NCBI RefSeq assembly: GCF_030053115.1
Contig: NZ_CP125619.1
Location: 5,913,001-5,977,000, forward strand
DNA: 64,000 bases
Origin: Pseudomonas svalbardensis
GTDB taxonomy: Bacteria > Pseudomonadota > Gammaproteobacteria > Pseudomonadales > Pseudomonadaceae
Direction: 5' to 3'
Made by a program: the position numbers and the translations under genes. Below the pieces are notes generated by a model. That model saw nothing but the letters and a program-made list of their open reading frames with translations, had not been told where the DNA came from and did no database searches. Shown here piece by piece: positions 19,434 to 24,306 of this stretch (position 1 is its first letter; every line of letters begins with the position of its first letter).

Positions 19434-20630
19434 ATGTCCCTGCCTAGCCTGCGCCTCAAAGCCAACGCCGACCGTCGCCTGCGAAACGGCCATTTGTGGG
19501 TCTATAGCAACGAAATCGATGTAGCCGCTACTCCTTTGCACGGCTTCAAGGCCGGCGACCAGGCGATCCTCGAAGCAGCCAGCGGCAAGCCGCTGGGCAT
19601 CGTTGCCATGAGCCCGAACAACCTGATCTGCGCCCGCCTCTTGTCGCGCGACATCAAGTTGCCGCTGGACAAGTCGCTGCTGGTGCATCGCCTGAACGTC
19701 GCGCTGTCCCTGCGCGATCGCCTGTTCGACAAGCCGTTCTATCGCCTGGTCTACGGCGATTCCGACCTGCTGCCAGGTCTGGTGGTCGACCGTTTCGGCG
19801 ACATCCTGGTGGTACAGATCGCTTCGGCGACCATGGAAGCCCATAAAGAAGACGTGATCGCAGCGCTGACCCAAGTGATCAAGCCTAGCGGCATTCTGTT
19901 CAAGAACGACTCCGCTGCCCGTGATGCCGAAGGCCTCAACCGCTACGTCGAAACCGTGTTCGGCCTGGTGCCGGAGTGGGTTGCCCTGGAAGAGAACGGC
20001 GTGAAATTCGAAGCGCCCGTCATCCAGGGACAGAAAACCGGCTGGTTCTACGACCACCGCATGAACCGCGCGCGTCTGGCACCTTATGCCAAAGGCAAAC
20101 GCGTGCTGGACCTGTACAGCTACATCGGTGGCTGGGGCGTGCAAGCGGCTGCGTTCGGCGCCAGTGAAGTGTTCTGCGTCGACGCGTCGGCCTTCGCCCT
20201 CGACGGCGTCGAGCGCAACGCCGCGCTGAACGGTTTCGCAGACAAGATGACCTGCATTGAAGGTGACGTGTTCGAAGCCCTGAAAGAGCTGAAAGCCAGC
20301 GAAGAGCGTTTCGACGTGATCGTTGCCGATCCTCCGGCGTTCATCAAACGCAAGAAAGACATGAAGAACGGTGAAGGTGCCTACCGTCGCCTGAACGAGC
20401 AAGCCATGCGTCTGCTCAGCAAAGACGGCATCCTGGTCAGCGCTTCGTGCTCGATGCACCTGCCGGAAGACGATCTGCAGAACATCCTGCTGACCAGCGC
20501 CCGTCACCTGGACCGCAACATCCAGATCCTGGAGCGCGGCGGTCAGGGCCCGGATCACCCGGTTCACCCAGCCATCGCCGAAACCCGCTACATCAAGAGC
20601 ATCACCTGCCGTCTGCTGCCAAACAGCTGA
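19434..20630 (+). CDS. rlmI: 23S rRNA (cytosine)-C5-methyltransferase, RlmI-like
   Basis: Class I SAM-dependent RNA methyltransferase of 398 residues. An N-terminal PUA domain (LRLKANADRRLRNGHLWVYS, residues 5-24) is followed by an EEHEE-like linker and a Rossmann domain. SAM motif VLDLYSYIGGWGVQAAAFGA, acidic ribose-binding FCVDAS, and the catalytic VADPPAFIKRKKDMKNGEGA and SCSMHLPEDD (catalytic Cys). E. coli RlmI (396 residues, C1962 of 23S rRNA) has this architecture; exact site specificity here is inferred. The ATG at 19434 follows GGAG and gives the family length. Confidence 0.83.
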   Translation: MSLPSLRLKANADRRLRNGHLWVYSNEIDVAATPLHGFKAGDQAILEAASGKPLGIVAMSPNNLICARLLSRDIKLPLDKSLLVHRLNVALSLRDRLFDKPFYRLVYGDSDLLPGLVVDRFGDILVVQIASATMEAHKEDVIAALTQVIKPSGILFKNDSAARDAEGLNRYVETVFGLVPEWVALEENGVKFEAPVIQGQKTGWFYDHRMNRARLAPYAKGKRVLDLYSYIGGWGVQAAAFGASEVFCVDASAFALDGVERNAALNGFADKMTCIEGDVFEALKELKASEERFDVIVADPPAFIKRKKDMKNGEGAYRRLNEQAMRLLSKDGILVSASCSMHLPEDDLQNILLTSARHLDRNIQILERGGQGPDHPVHPAIAETRYIKSITCRLLPNS

Positions 20631-20643
20631 TTACGCTGGTTTG

Positions 20644-20667
20644 ACGGGGAGCCAGCCGGCTCCCCGT
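20644..20667 (+). terminator. Terminator hairpin after the rlmI-like gene
   Basis: A 10-bp perfect stem ACGGGGAGCC/GGCTCCCCGT with a 4-base loop, followed by a modest T-rich tail. It should isolate the methyltransferase gene from the accessory operon that follows. Confidence 0.8.
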
Positions 20668-20831
20668 TCTGTTATCTGTTATTGAATCCTCCAACTTCCT
20701 ACTCCAGCGGTCTTAATGACTTGCAGGACGTTTCGCTTTGTCTTTTATTTTAGCGGACAGAACTTACAAGACTCATCCAACCCTCAGATCAATCCGACAA
20801 AATTACTGGAATATTCCTACCCAATCCCCCC

Positions 20832-20859
20832 TTGATAAGAACTCATTACAAACTATGAT
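20832..20859 (+). promoter_or_regulatory. Sigma-70-type promoter of the peptide/SagB/AurF operon
   Basis: TTGATA at 20832-20837 and TATGAT at 20854-20859, 16-base spacer. Each hexamer matches 5 of 6 consensus bases. It sits in an AT-rich stretch unlike the flanks, and expected transcription would begin about 20866, leaving a leader of roughly 45 bases before the peptide ORF. Confidence 0.7.
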
Positions 20860-20911
20860 TAAGTCGTCACAAAGGAGTGACACTCACTATCAATTACAAG
20901 GAGTTCAAAAC

Positions 20912-20983
20912 ATGAAAGCAATTACTCTGGAAACCAACAAAATCGCTAACCTGGCTTTTCTGGTTGCGCCAAAAGCCCGCTAA
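20912..20983 (+). CDS. 23-residue peptide ORF, candidate RiPP precursor or leader peptide
   Basis: A very short ORF with the strongest ribosome site in the area (AAGGAG at 20898-20903, 8 bases before ATG). The product begins MKAITLETNK and ends LVAPKAR; it has a basic/acidic N-terminal half, a hydrophobic middle (residues 11-19) and net charge about +3. It contains no Cys or Ser and only two Thr (5 and 8), so azoline formation or lanthionine chemistry is unlikely. It is followed by an attenuator-like hairpin and then SagB-type dehydrogenase, AurF-type oxygenase and exporter genes. A precursor peptide for these enzymes is my preferred reading; a regulatory leader peptide is the alternative. 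I recognise no named peptide family. Confidence 0.6.
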   Translation: MKAITLETNKIANLAFLVAPKAR

Positions 20984-20990
20984 GTAAATG

Positions 20991-21024
20991 AAACGCTGGG
21001 GAGTGCCGGCTACCCAGCGTTTTC
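20991..21024 (+). terminator. Attenuator-like hairpin between the peptide ORF and the dehydrogenase gene
   Basis: A 10-bp perfect stem AAACGCTGGG (20991-21000) / CCCAGCGTTT (21013-21022), a 12-base loop and a short T tract (TTTTCT). It begins 7 bases after the peptide stop codon. Partial termination here would give much more peptide message than enzyme message, as is common in RiPP operons. It could also act with translation of the peptide in classical attenuation. Confidence 0.7.
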
Positions 21025-21054
21025 TATGGCAAAGACCAGAGTGAGTCGCCAATC

Positions 21055-22134
21055 ATGCAGATAAACCCTTATATATTCATACTTCCCCGCACGCCCGACC
21101 AAATAGTCTGGGATTACAAGAACCACAAACAGTTCGAATTGAATCTTGAATATTCAACCCGTCTCGCACACCTTATCGAAAACCCTGAAAAGTTTGATAA
21201 CAACAACATAATAGACACGCAACTCCTGAACGCGGGAATACTCACAACCTCAATACAAGACACCCTTGAATGGGGCTGGGATGAACTGTCGAAGATATTT
21301 CATATCGGCACCAAGAACATTCCTTGTGAATATATCCCCCAAGATATTAATGAATGGTCGAGACACTATCTGAACCATTGCGCCGAAGTACTGGCCACTC
21401 CTGCCCCGGAGGCCAGACTCACAGAGCACCCGACAACCGAACGGATTGCATTGCCTCAACCTTCCTGCTTCCCGGTAAAAGCGCTTGTAAAGACGTTGAT
21501 CGAGCGAAAGACCTGTCGCACCTTCACGGGTGAAAGAGTTTCCCTCGATGATGTGAGCACTCTTCTGTATTTGTCCCTTGGTTATCTGCGTGAGCGCGAC
21601 AACGACATCGACGAAACCATCGCTGAAGGTCTTGGCGCCCGGCGCAGCAGTCCATCCGGTGGCGGGCTGAATGCCTGCGAAGGTTTTCTGCATGTTCAGA
21701 ACGTCAGCGGCCTGAATCCCGGGCTCTACGCCTACCACCCCGACGAACATGCGTTGAGCTTCGTCAATCCGGTACCTGACTTGCCCTTGGGCCAGTTGTT
21801 GTGTGGGCAGCATTTCATCAACAACCTGCCAGTCGGCCTGTTCATCACCGCTCGCTTCGACAAACTGTGGTGGAAATATGAACACTCGCGGGCCTACCGA
21901 ATGGCTTACGTCGAGGCAGGTCATATTTCCCAGACCTTTCAACTGGTGGCCACCGCACTTGGGTTAAGCACCTGGCTGACCGGTGCGTTGGCCGACGATC
22001 AGGTCGAAACGTTGCTGGGGATCGAGGACAGCGCCGAACAACCGTTGTTTTTTGTGGGCTGCGGCCAGAGTGACGGACAAGTGATGTGCAAGGAATTGAA
22101 AGCGCTGCTGCGCAACCGAGGCCCACAACAATGA
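21055..22134 (+). CDS. SagB-type FMN-dependent peptide dehydrogenase
   Basis: A 359-residue protein of the SagB/ThcOx oxidoreductase family, flavin enzymes that oxidise residues in ribosomal peptides. Residues 1 to about 130 form the N-terminal helical/winged region, with the conserved-type WGWDELSKIFHIGTKN (73-88). The nitroreductase-fold FMN domain follows: RKTCRTFTGE (151-160), SSPSGGGLNACEGF (198-211) and AYRMAYVEAGHISQTFQLVA (280-299). No YcaO or E1-like cyclodehydratase is nearby, so the usual azoline substrate is not expected. The first ten codons include three ATA codons, rare in Pseudomonas, and the 5' third is AT-rich. The ribosome site is weak. It ends in an ATGA overlap with the next gene. 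Confidence 0.82.
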   Translation: MQINPYIFILPRTPDQIVWDYKNHKQFELNLEYSTRLAHLIENPEKFDNNNIIDTQLLNAGILTTSIQDTLEWGWDELSKIFHIGTKNIPCEYIPQDINEWSRHYLNHCAEVLATPAPEARLTEHPTTERIALPQPSCFPVKALVKTLIERKTCRTFTGERVSLDDVSTLLYLSLGYLRERDNDIDETIAEGLGARRSSPSGGGLNACEGFLHVQNVSGLNPGLYAYHPDEHALSFVNPVPDLPLGQLLCGQHFINNLPVGLFITARFDKLWWKYEHSRAYRMAYVEAGHISQTFQLVATALGLSTWLTGALADDQVETLLGIEDSAEQPLFFVGCGQSDGQVMCKELKALLRNRGPQQ

Positions 22135-23108
22135 CCGAGCCCCGCACAGACGACCTGTCACTGCCCGACGCCTGGGCACAGCGCTTCACCCTCGGCGACT
22201 GGAACACCCGGGCCTCGGTACGAACCAGCGAGCACACCTATCAATTGCCATCAGATCTGGAACGGCAACTGGAAACACGACACTGGTTCCCGCCCGCCTT
22301 CCTGCCCTACCTGAATCACCCGGAAATCGATGCAGCCGGCAGTGCGATCACCCATCGTTTATCGGCCAACCATCTGGTGTATTTCCTCGACTACACCACC
22401 CAGCTCGAACATCGAATCGTCAACCGCTCCGTGGAAACCATCGTCCACGATGAGCTCGGTGTATCTATCCCCCGACGGATGAAAACAGCTGCCCTCCAGC
22501 TTTATACCGATGAGGGTTATCACGCTCTGTTCTCCAATAGTCTCGCCGAGCAGATAGCCGACCTTTACGGCATGAGCCAACGCCCGGTGATGCCGCACCG
22601 CATTACCCGACTGAACGCCCTGCTTGACCACGCGCCTGACAGGCATAAGGCGCTGGCCTGGTTTCTCGTCGGCTTCGTGTCCGAGACCATCATCGCCAGG
22701 GAACTGCTCGAGGTTTGCCGCAACGAGTTGGTGTCCAGCGTCCAGGAAATGCTCAGGGACCACCTCACCGACGAGGCCCGACACAGTCGTTATTTTTGCG
22801 AAGTGTTCCATTATCTGTGGCTGACCCTGAACAGCAGCCAACGCACGTTCGCGGCGAAGCTGCTGGTGGACATCATCCTGATGTTCTTTGAGGTCGATGA
22901 GCGATGGCTGAAGGAAAGCCTGAACAGCGTGGGCCTCAGGGAGAATTGCGTCGCAGAAATCCTCAGTGCCCTGACCAGCCCGCAAGCCTGCCTTCAGCGC
23001 GCCCGATCAGGTGCAGGCGCGACGCTACAGGCGATGGAAAAGGCAGGTTTTTTCGACCTGCCTTTTAACCAGCAGCTCTTCGCACAGGCAGGACTTGTCG
23101 ATGGATGA
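22131..23108 (+). CDS. AurF-type non-heme diiron oxygenase
   Basis: A 325-residue protein I assign to the p-aminobenzoate N-oxygenase (AurF) family. All seven diiron ligands of AurF can be placed with matching spacing: E93 (YTTQLEHRIVN), E128 and H131 (YTDEGYHALF), E185 (FVSETIIARE), H211, E215 and H218 (DHLTDEARHS). AurF relatives oxidise amines to hydroxylamine, nitroso or nitro groups, and some act in small-molecule signal pathways (MgoC/PvfB-like in Pseudomonas). Here the partner is a SagB-type dehydrogenase and a short peptide gene, so an N-oxidised peptide-derived product is an inference. Start codon overlaps the stop of the dehydrogenase gene (ATGA) and its end overlaps the exporter gene by 8 bases. 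Confidence 0.83.
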   Translation: MTEPRTDDLSLPDAWAQRFTLGDWNTRASVRTSEHTYQLPSDLERQLETRHWFPPAFLPYLNHPEIDAAGSAITHRLSANHLVYFLDYTTQLEHRIVNRSVETIVHDELGVSIPRRMKTAALQLYTDEGYHALFSNSLAEQIADLYGMSQRPVMPHRITRLNALLDHAPDRHKALAWFLVGFVSETIIARELLEVCRNELVSSVQEMLRDHLTDEARHSRYFCEVFHYLWLTLNSSQRTFAAKLLVDIILMFFEVDERWLKESLNSVGLRENCVAEILSALTSPQACLQRARSGAGATLQAMEKAGFFDLPFNQQLFAQAGLVDG

Positions 23109-24306
23109 AGGAATATCTGCGGTCAGTGTCAAACACCGCCGCTCTGCGATCACCCTGTTAATGACCATGGTGATGCTCGGGGTCTTCCCTCTGGATGTTC
23201 TGCTGCCATCGTTCCCGGCGCTGGCCGAACACTTCCGGACCACGCCAGGCGACATCGCGTTTTCCATCAGCCTGTTTGCCATCGGGATCGCACTTTCCCA
23301 ACTACTGGTCGGGCCGCTCTCGGATGTCATCGGGCGCAAAAGTCTGCTGCTGGCGGGAATGGCGGTCTCGATTGTCGGTGCGACTGGTTGCGTGCTGTCC
23401 ACCGACTACGCCTGGTTCCTGATGTTCCGGGTGGTGCAAGCCATCGGCTGCGGTTGCTTCGTGCTCTCGCAGGCGCTGGTCCAGGACCTGTTCGACGGCA
23501 AGGAGCGGGATCAACTGCGGATTCTGATGGTCACCGCCAGCGGGATCTTCATTTCCGTCTCGCCACTGGCTGGCACCCTGTTGCAACAGGCACTGGACTG
23601 GCCCGCAAGCTTCATTGTCTTTATTGCCATCGCCGCCGCCGTGTTCCTTAAGGCCTGCTTCTTTCTTGAAAACCGGCACACTGCCACAACCCAGCGCCGA
23701 AGTATTCTTCAGTCCTACCGGCGTGTCTGTCGCGATGCGGGTTTCCTCGGCTATTGGCTGATCGCCGCAATCGCCTTCACCTGCCACTTTTCCTTCATTG
23801 TCATCTCGCCCCTGATCTTCATGGAGCAGTTGCAGCTTTCGGCCTACGAGTTTTCCCTGACACTGCTGCTGTATGGCGTGGCCTACATCATCGGCGGCAT
23901 TCTCGCTCGAGTCCTCGCTGGGCGAATCGCCCCCAATACACAGATCATCGTCGGTCTAAGCCTGATCTTCTTTTCGGGGCTGGTAATGCTCATGCTCTCA
24001 AACGCGATGGGGCTGTCGACCCTGACGGTGCTGATCCCGATGATCATCTGCACCGCCGGCACCACCATCGCTCGCCCTATCGCCACCTCGAAGGCGATGG
24101 AGGTTTTTCCGGACATGGCCGGTACCTCGGCGTCCGCCGGGAACACGCTGGTATTCATCTTCGGTGGCCTGATCAGCGCCCTGATCAACCTGAGTCCCTT
24201 CGAACTGCAACTGACGCTGGCCCTCAGCTTCATCGCCTTGAGCAGCGTCGGGCTGGTCATGATCTGTCACATCCGCCTGCGCAATCCGGCCTTGCGCGAA
24301 GCCTGA
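23101..24306 (+). CDS. Bcr/CflA-type MFS exporter
   Basis: A 401-residue, about 12-segment major facilitator transporter. The N-terminal pattern LDVLLPSFPALAEHF followed by LLVGPLSDVIGRKSLLLAG (MFS motif A between segments 2 and 3) is that of the Bcr/CflA drug-efflux subgroup. It is translationally coupled to the AurF-type gene (8-base overlap), so it most likely exports the pathway product or protects the producer. The substrate is not predictable. The next gene is convergent and starts outside the operon. Confidence 0.86.
   Translation: MDEGISAVSVKHRRSAITLLMTMVMLGVFPLDVLLPSFPALAEHFRTTPGDIAFSISLFAIGIALSQLLVGPLSDVIGRKSLLLAGMAVSIVGATGCVLSTDYAWFLMFRVVQAIGCGCFVLSQALVQDLFDGKERDQLRILMVTASGIFISVSPLAGTLLQQALDWPASFIVFIAIAAAVFLKACFFLENRHTATTQRRSILQSYRRVCRDAGFLGYWLIAAIAFTCHFSFIVISPLIFMEQLQLSAYEFSLTLLLYGVAYIIGGILARVLAGRIAPNTQIIVGLSLIFFSGLVMLMLSNAMGLSTLTVLIPMIICTAGTTIARPIATSKAMEVFPDMAGTSASAGNTLVFIFGGLISALINLSPFELQLTLALSFIALSSVGLVMICHIRLRNPALREA

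Follow-up and report, generated by a model that had tools for sequence, protein, structure and literature searches.

The locus considered here lies within a window of 64,000 nucleotides from Pseudomonas svalbardensis (contig NZ_CP125619.1, positions 5,913,001 to 5,977,000), the genome of which is one contig of 6.36 Mb, and consists of a four-gene unit in which a short peptide open reading frame (ORF) is followed by a SagB-type gene, an AurF-type gene and a gene of the major facilitator superfamily (MFS). A first-pass annotation, made from the letters of the window, had described a promoter-like site, a ribosome site, a 23-codon ORF, a hairpin and three genes joined by short overlaps, all of which were found again in place (Table 1).

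Table 1. Features of the four-gene unit (positions are those of the window; RRE, RiPP recognition element, with RiPP for ribosomally synthesised and post-translationally modified peptide).
Feature	Position	Strand	Basis or remark
Sigma-70-type promoter TTGATA-16-TATGAT (10/12)	20832..20859	+	scan; recurrence in relatives
Inverted repeat GTCAC-N6-GTGAC, candidate operator or hairpin of the 5' untranslated region, just 3' of the -10 element	20866..20881	not assigned	scan
Shine-Dalgarno sequence AAGGAG of the peptide ORF	20898..20903	+	ends 8 bases ahead of the ATG
23-residue precursor-peptide ORF MKAITLETNKIANLAFLVAPKAR; ATG 20912, TAA 20981-20983; leader-like residues 1-10, core-like residues 11-23	20912..20983	+	conservation, pN/pS
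Stem-loop between peptide ORF and SagB gene: 11-bp stem, 12-nt loop GAGTGCCGGCTA, terminator-like here	20990..21023	+	conservation
RRE-SagB fusion, 359 aa	21055..22134	+	domain models, predicted fold
RRE-like domain, about residues 1-74	21055-21276	+	within the SagB gene
Nitroreductase/SagB domain, about residues 150-337	21502-22065	+	within the SagB gene
AurF-type diiron oxygenase, 325 aa, seven ligands present	22131..23108	+	4-base overlap with the SagB gene
MFS exporter, Bcr/CflA-like, 401 aa	23101..24306	+	8-base overlap with the AurF gene

Using AurF as query, 125 relatives were obtained, the best 80 of which were kept, all of them from Pseudomonas and with AurF proteins up to 98% identical to that of the window; together with the window they form a set of 81 loci. 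Upstream of SagB a peptide ORF is present in 80/80 kept relatives and in the window, i.e. in 81/81 AurF-bearing loci, whereby the gap from its end to the SagB start measures 62-75 bases and its length is 23 codons in 80/81 loci and 24 codons in one. The earlier expectation that homologous clusters possess a conserved short ORF at the same position was hence borne out. Residues E7, A12, N13 and L14 are invariant in all 80 peptides that are 23 residues long, and K21 is found in 75 and R23 in 78 of them. The ratio of nonsynonymous to synonymous polymorphism (pN/pS), derived from 73 distinct DNA versions and 600 random pairs with the single 24-codon ORF left out, amounts to 0.37 for the entire ORF, to 0.86 for codons 2-11, to 0.05 for codons 12-18 (ANLAFLV) and to 0.25 for codons 19-23, and the value for codons 12-18 documents the purifying selection at the protein level that had been anticipated. 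Within codons 12-23 the entropy at the three codon positions is 0.28, 0.12 and 0.85, respectively; variation is mostly found in third positions, and selection therefore acts on the amino acids. A TTG-started form of the same frame is also present (81 aa, 20738-20983), and the 23-residue start is favoured over it because of its Shine-Dalgarno sequence and its conservation. The 23-residue ORF is a real gene, and one which, with its 23 codons, may easily be overlooked by routine annotation.

Classes were drawn from 40 chosen loci, most of them divergent, and the neighbourhoods of seven were inspected with Pfam. Type I/Ib/Ic loci combine SagB, AurF and MFS genes with peptides containing ..[ILM][AE]N[LWMF].., and a locus from another genus of the same family (L197) carries MIKTIYESKQLANWTAISTPTKG together with SagB, AurF and MFS genes. 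Type II loci hold SagB and MFS genes, and their peptides include MEKIKLEQAVSAGHHALLGTSK and MNAIVLESKALAAFALIGMPK. Type III loci comprise SagB, a carbamoyltransferase and an MFS gene, and their longer peptides contain SN[DN]AY and start more loosely (MKRVTIE, MRKANLQ, MKKIIMQ). The carbamoyltransferase (Carbam_trans_N and C) was confirmed with Pfam in L128 (L128:6046-8863) and recognised by eye in L131 and L132, where an extra ORF of about 600 aa lies in between, downstream of SagB. The carbamoyltransferase loci are a separate branch of the SagB platform. Across the types the peptide N-terminus stays MKxIxLE-like, being looser in type III and in an ORF from Maritalea (see below), and the C-terminus differs from one enzyme set to another; within type I, the leader-like half is the less constrained one, except for K2, I4, L6 and E7.

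The link between peptide core and AurF was surveyed in 121 distinct SagB loci (L082-L151, L157-L194, L205-L238), 112 of which have a SagB match covering more than 85% of the query and entered the motif count, the 9/121 with a partial SagB being excluded. By script, the [ILM][AE]N[LWMF] core was found in 98/99 AurF-bearing loci, the 99th (L122) having LANM by eye, and in 0/13 AurF-less loci (seven type II, six type III); L122 and L114 were dropped only by the Shine-Dalgarno filter of the script and their peptides were read by eye. Position 13 is Asn in 68/68 distinct AurF-linked peptides, and position 14, assigned by ungapped count from the start with Glu7 in register, is L in 64, W in two, M in one and F in one of them, as compared to F in four and H in three of the seven type II peptides.

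The protein encoded next to the peptide ORF matches Nitroreductase (PF00881) above its cut-off and SagB (TIGR03605) with 120.9 bits against a cut-off of 78.4. It shares a related oxidase domain with the SagB-related putative peptide maturation dehydrogenases of TIGR04511, scoring 160.5 bits and thereby staying under the cut-off of 240. The SagB alignment comprised 26 of the 81 sequences. For the N-terminal domain a model with a predicted local distance difference test (pLDDT) value of 86 was obtained, the 19 best structural matches of which comprise only RiPP enzymes and RRE proteins, with weak Foldseek E values; by predicted fold only, this domain is RRE-like and fused to the SagB/nitroreductase domain. 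Cyclodipeptide oxidases match the fold of the SagB model no better than ordinary nitroreductases do.

Membership of the SagB family and the presence of solved azoline oxidases among the closest relatives would be in line with a pathway resembling those of linear azol(in)e-containing peptides and thiazole/oxazole-modified microcins, in which SagB oxidises azolines coming from a cyclodehydratase encoded elsewhere. The cyanobactin oxidase ThcOx/CyaGox (5lq4, 8pz5), for example, oxidises azolines which a YcaO heterocyclase has formed. The operon described here differs from that system in that it encodes no heterocyclase and in that the peptide core is devoid of conserved Cys, Ser or Thr, as residue counts in relatives revealed; this tally covers 68 distinct AurF-linked and seven type II peptides, with L197, L204 and all type III peptides standing outside it. 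The earlier description of the peptide as free of Cys holds for the window, not for its relatives, where Cys16 occurs in 10/68 distinct peptides. The statement that the cluster contains no YcaO was substantiated, with none among the four proteins, and the only YcaO match of the genome resides about 330 kb away (G000:C1:5600798) in a 736-aa frame, presumably representing a housekeeping YcaO. The azole pathway was set aside, the operon holding no YcaO and the core no conserved Cys, Ser or Thr, and is regarded as most improbable.

The third protein of the unit was identified by AurF PF11583 (66.7 bits, cut-off 29.6). All seven diiron ligands named by the first-pass annotation (E93, E128, H131, E185, H211, E215, H218) are invariant in 21 aligned AurF sequences of the 81 and align with the AurF structure 3chh, which confirms their presence. 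Sequence-profile matches to the diiron N-oxygenases were obtained with E 1.9e-15 (3chh) and 2.1e-8 (5hyg, CmlI). AurF and CmlI oxidise arylamines, whereas the likely substrate here is a peptide, and the score of 54.9 bits is far under the 620 bits of the 4-aminobenzoate N-oxygenase model NF045603. As to the site of action, N-oxidation at the C-terminal VAPKAR had been proposed, which is not favoured given the pN/pS of 0.25 there as compared to 0.05 for ANLAFLV and given that Asn13 tracks AurF. Lys21/Arg23 as AurF target was likewise set aside, as a C-terminal Lys is found in all seven AurF-less type II peptides and one AurF-associated peptide ends with ..VIVS. The exporter scores above the cut-off of MFS_1 and reaches 196.4 bits with TIGR00710 (Bcr/CflA), just under the cut-off of 200.9.

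The arrangement of the intergenic region brings in a second explanation, namely that the short ORF encodes a leader peptide with a regulatory role, whereby stalling or attenuation at ORF and stem-loop would control enzymes and an exporter acting on an unrelated small molecule; that Bcr/CflA-type exporters include drug-efflux pumps would fit such a role. A perfect stem with 7 or more base pairs is present in 102/110 gaps between ORF and SagB as compared to 156/1100 mononucleotide shuffles, with both-side changes at 6/10 pairs in 12 chosen type I gaps of the 110, and a U-tract renders the stem-loop terminator-like in 68/110 gaps versus 34/1100 shuffles. Yet 42/110 hairpins are without a U-tract, and no Rfam family was matched within 20600-21300, so that a known Rfam element was set aside as identity of the intergenic structure. 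Furthermore, synonymous sites vary in codons 12-23 (pS 0.34 and 0.47), so little constraint at the RNA level shows in these codons; the N-terminus is similar across types and the C-terminus follows the enzyme set, and a stalling peptide is not expected to track a tailoring enzyme; finally, the RRE-like domain of SagB would be left without a role. Taken together, and with no search made for an antiterminator, a purely regulatory function of the ORF is considered improbable. The loop (window 21001-21012) keeps a GUGCCGGC-like sequence in the gaps of L120, L121, L127, L146 and L148, with the variants GGGCCGGC in L127 and GACGCCGGC in L148, and its retention in divergent loci, some of which have no U-tract, suggests more than a plain terminator. 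The stem-loop probably lowers expression of the enzymes relative to that of the precursor.

Upstream of the peptide ORF, a regional scan for promoter sites yielded two as compared to 2.3 in shuffles, i.e. no excess, and was set aside as proof in favour of recurrence across loci: within the 110 bases before the peptide the best site reaches 10/12 in 72/81 loci, mostly at -80 to -85, a count without shuffle control. The motif GTCAC-N6-GTGAC has one match in the window as compared to 0.09 expected, and a GTCRY...GNGRC-type repeat is found in 78/81 loci, the generic stem test being weak (68/81 versus 228/810 shuffles). The inverted repeat is a candidate operator; the operon itself holds no regulator gene.

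It was further considered that the peptide stays unmodified and serves as carrier, activator or signal for SagB and AurF acting on another substrate, in the manner of the scaffolds to which peptide aminoacyl-tRNA ligases (PEARLs) add residues. The peptide is indeed very short, its core is almost invariant in type I, and neither a protease nor a ligase is found among the four proteins. Against a carrier role stand this absence of a LanB-like or other ligase domain and the change of the core residue, which tracks the loss of AurF; a mere carrier is very improbable.

The short peptide can with considerable confidence be regarded as the substrate of the enzymes, and the unit very probably encodes a leader/core RiPP pathway without cyclodehydratase; the reading of leader and core processing was derived from the similar N-terminus, the RRE-like domain and the enzyme-linked C-terminus. 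The initial proposal of a ribosomal substrate of an undescribed pathway is hence sustained by the conserved short ORF, its purifying selection and the RRE-like domain, its guess of a Lys/Arg site not being favoured. Two points weigh against this reading. No short ORF precedes SagB in L134 (28% identical, partial), in the remnants L142/L143 and in the distant L198-L202, so the rule of a short ORF before every SagB is not general. Moreover, all type II loci fall into a single clade (99/99), whose grouping with I+Ib has support of 87/97, below the star of the program; this clade sits inside AurF-bearing lineages only if the tree, which carries long-branch warnings, is rooted at its midpoint. The core-AurF association hence reflects few independent events, a single one or two to three at the most.

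For the RiPP reading the following mechanism was conceived. Initially the N-terminal strand of the peptide (MKxIxLE) would dock on the RRE, whereupon the flavin mononucleotide domain may take two hydrogens from a residue of the core that possesses a beta-methylene. That SagB performs such an alpha,beta-desaturation is held to be an even chance and was proposed because of two precedents. For a Pseudomonas RiPP, a preprint reports that Z-dehydroPhe arises through a YcaO-free nitroreductase domain (PMC12636437), and cyclodipeptide oxidases of the same fold are described to desaturate cyclic dipeptides with Phe, Leu and His, and poorly Trp (PMC11760959). The cyclodipeptide oxidases AlbAB/NdasCDO (8uc3, 9exv) perform, with the nitroreductase fold, the alpha,beta-dehydrogenation of peptide residues that is proposed here for SagB (PMC11760959), but they form filaments of two subunits, and their substrates are free cyclic dipeptides and not a precursor encoded by a gene. 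If SagB desaturates, the best candidate would be position 14 (L, W, M or F with AurF; F or H in type II without AurF), an assignment somewhat short of even odds. The diiron enzyme might then oxygenate at or next to Asn13, for and against which the balance is about equal. Leader and tail would be trimmed by peptidases encoded elsewhere, and the MFS protein would finally export the small product.

Among known systems, the pfl/pos RiPP clusters with the PflD fusion of a multinuclear non-haem iron-dependent oxidative enzyme (MNIO) and a nitroreductase come close: they share Pseudomonas as host, a YcaO-free nitroreductase-type flavoenzyme plus iron oxygenase acting on a ribosomal precursor, and a cluster without protease (PMC12636437). 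They differ in that their oxygenases are MNIO and HEXXH enzymes and not AurF, that their leader is long and resembles nitrile hydratase leader peptides as compared to about 10 residues here, and that no RRE-SagB fusion is noted for them in the parts consulted (PMC12636437). RiPPs, SagB enzymes, RREs and AurF enzymes are each already known. For a fused RRE-SagB without cyclodehydratase acting on a precursor of 21-27 residues together with AurF, no published description was found in a search outside of which most subscription literature lay. The pathway looks like an uncharacterised route to a modified-peptide product, the product being predicted from the genes alone. Tentatively, an undescribed RiPP class may be put forward, defined by an RRE-SagB fusion, no cyclodehydratase, precursors of about 21-27 residues, desaturation of Leu, Phe, Trp, Met or His, AurF acting at or beside an invariant Asn, and a modular platform with AurF, nothing or a carbamoyltransferase before the exporter.

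The operon is flanked on one side by an rRNA methyltransferase gene (RlmI-like, its best model being under cut-off) and on the other, past one opposite-strand gene, by ilvD. In L113 and L117 an ilvD-like ORF is situated downstream of the AurF-less cassette, as ilvD is downstream of the AurF cassette in the window (by eye), as if cassettes replaced one another at one site near ilvD. Reading frames are unbroken in 79/81 loci for SagB (exceptions L031 and L077), a count taking in L027, whose SagB frame continues into AurF, in 79/81 for AurF (exceptions L036 and L076) and in 81/81 for MFS. In L027 (4882-6930) no stop separates the SagB and AurF frames, giving 683 codons, which either form a naturally fused gene or go back to an error in sequencing. 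Scattered SagB or AurF copies are frameshifted or truncated (L031, L036, L076, L077, L139-L146), L139 having kept peptide and exporter next to a SagB remnant, without AurF. In L004 and L006, SagB and AurF are 89-95% identical to those of the window and the exporter is 59-60% identical, so the exporter seems to have been swapped independently of SagB/AurF.

As to the spread, a SagB profile match (E <= 1e-10) was obtained in 123/398 sampled Pseudomonas species genomes, partial and distant matches counted in. In the family sample 8/148 genomes matched, one other genus (G901) among them. The class sample (369 genomes, 1e-30) yielded five genomes besides that of the window, with weak matches that cover hardly more than the oxidase half, and a Ralstonia SagB query at 1e-40 matched in the same sample only the genome of the window. 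Searching relatives of a type II genome with the type II profile gave 36/194 matches at 1e-100 and no further type II genome. Near-full-length relatives of the type III SagB occur in Ralstonia, Cupriavidus, Pandoraea and Xenorhabdus (P0156, P0158, P0177, P0204), known as proteins only. Beside the distant SagB of a same-class genome, a 106-aa ORF on the opposite strand (L198:5097-5417, SagB orientation) presumably resembles a nitrile-hydratase-type leader. On a plasmid of the alphaproteobacterial Maritalea (L204, 4693-7110), a 25-aa ORF MKKVTRTFPNKEKLASFVLDVNGVC is followed by a stem-loop, SagB and MFS, hence the layout exists outside the gammaproteobacteria.

If the proposed pathway holds true, peptides would be added to the substrates of the AurF family, and the RiPPs would gain one more YcaO-free enzyme of nitroreductase type that carries out a dehydrogenation. 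A sizeable share of Pseudomonas species would then possess a compact pathway, comprising four genes and a precursor of 23 residues.

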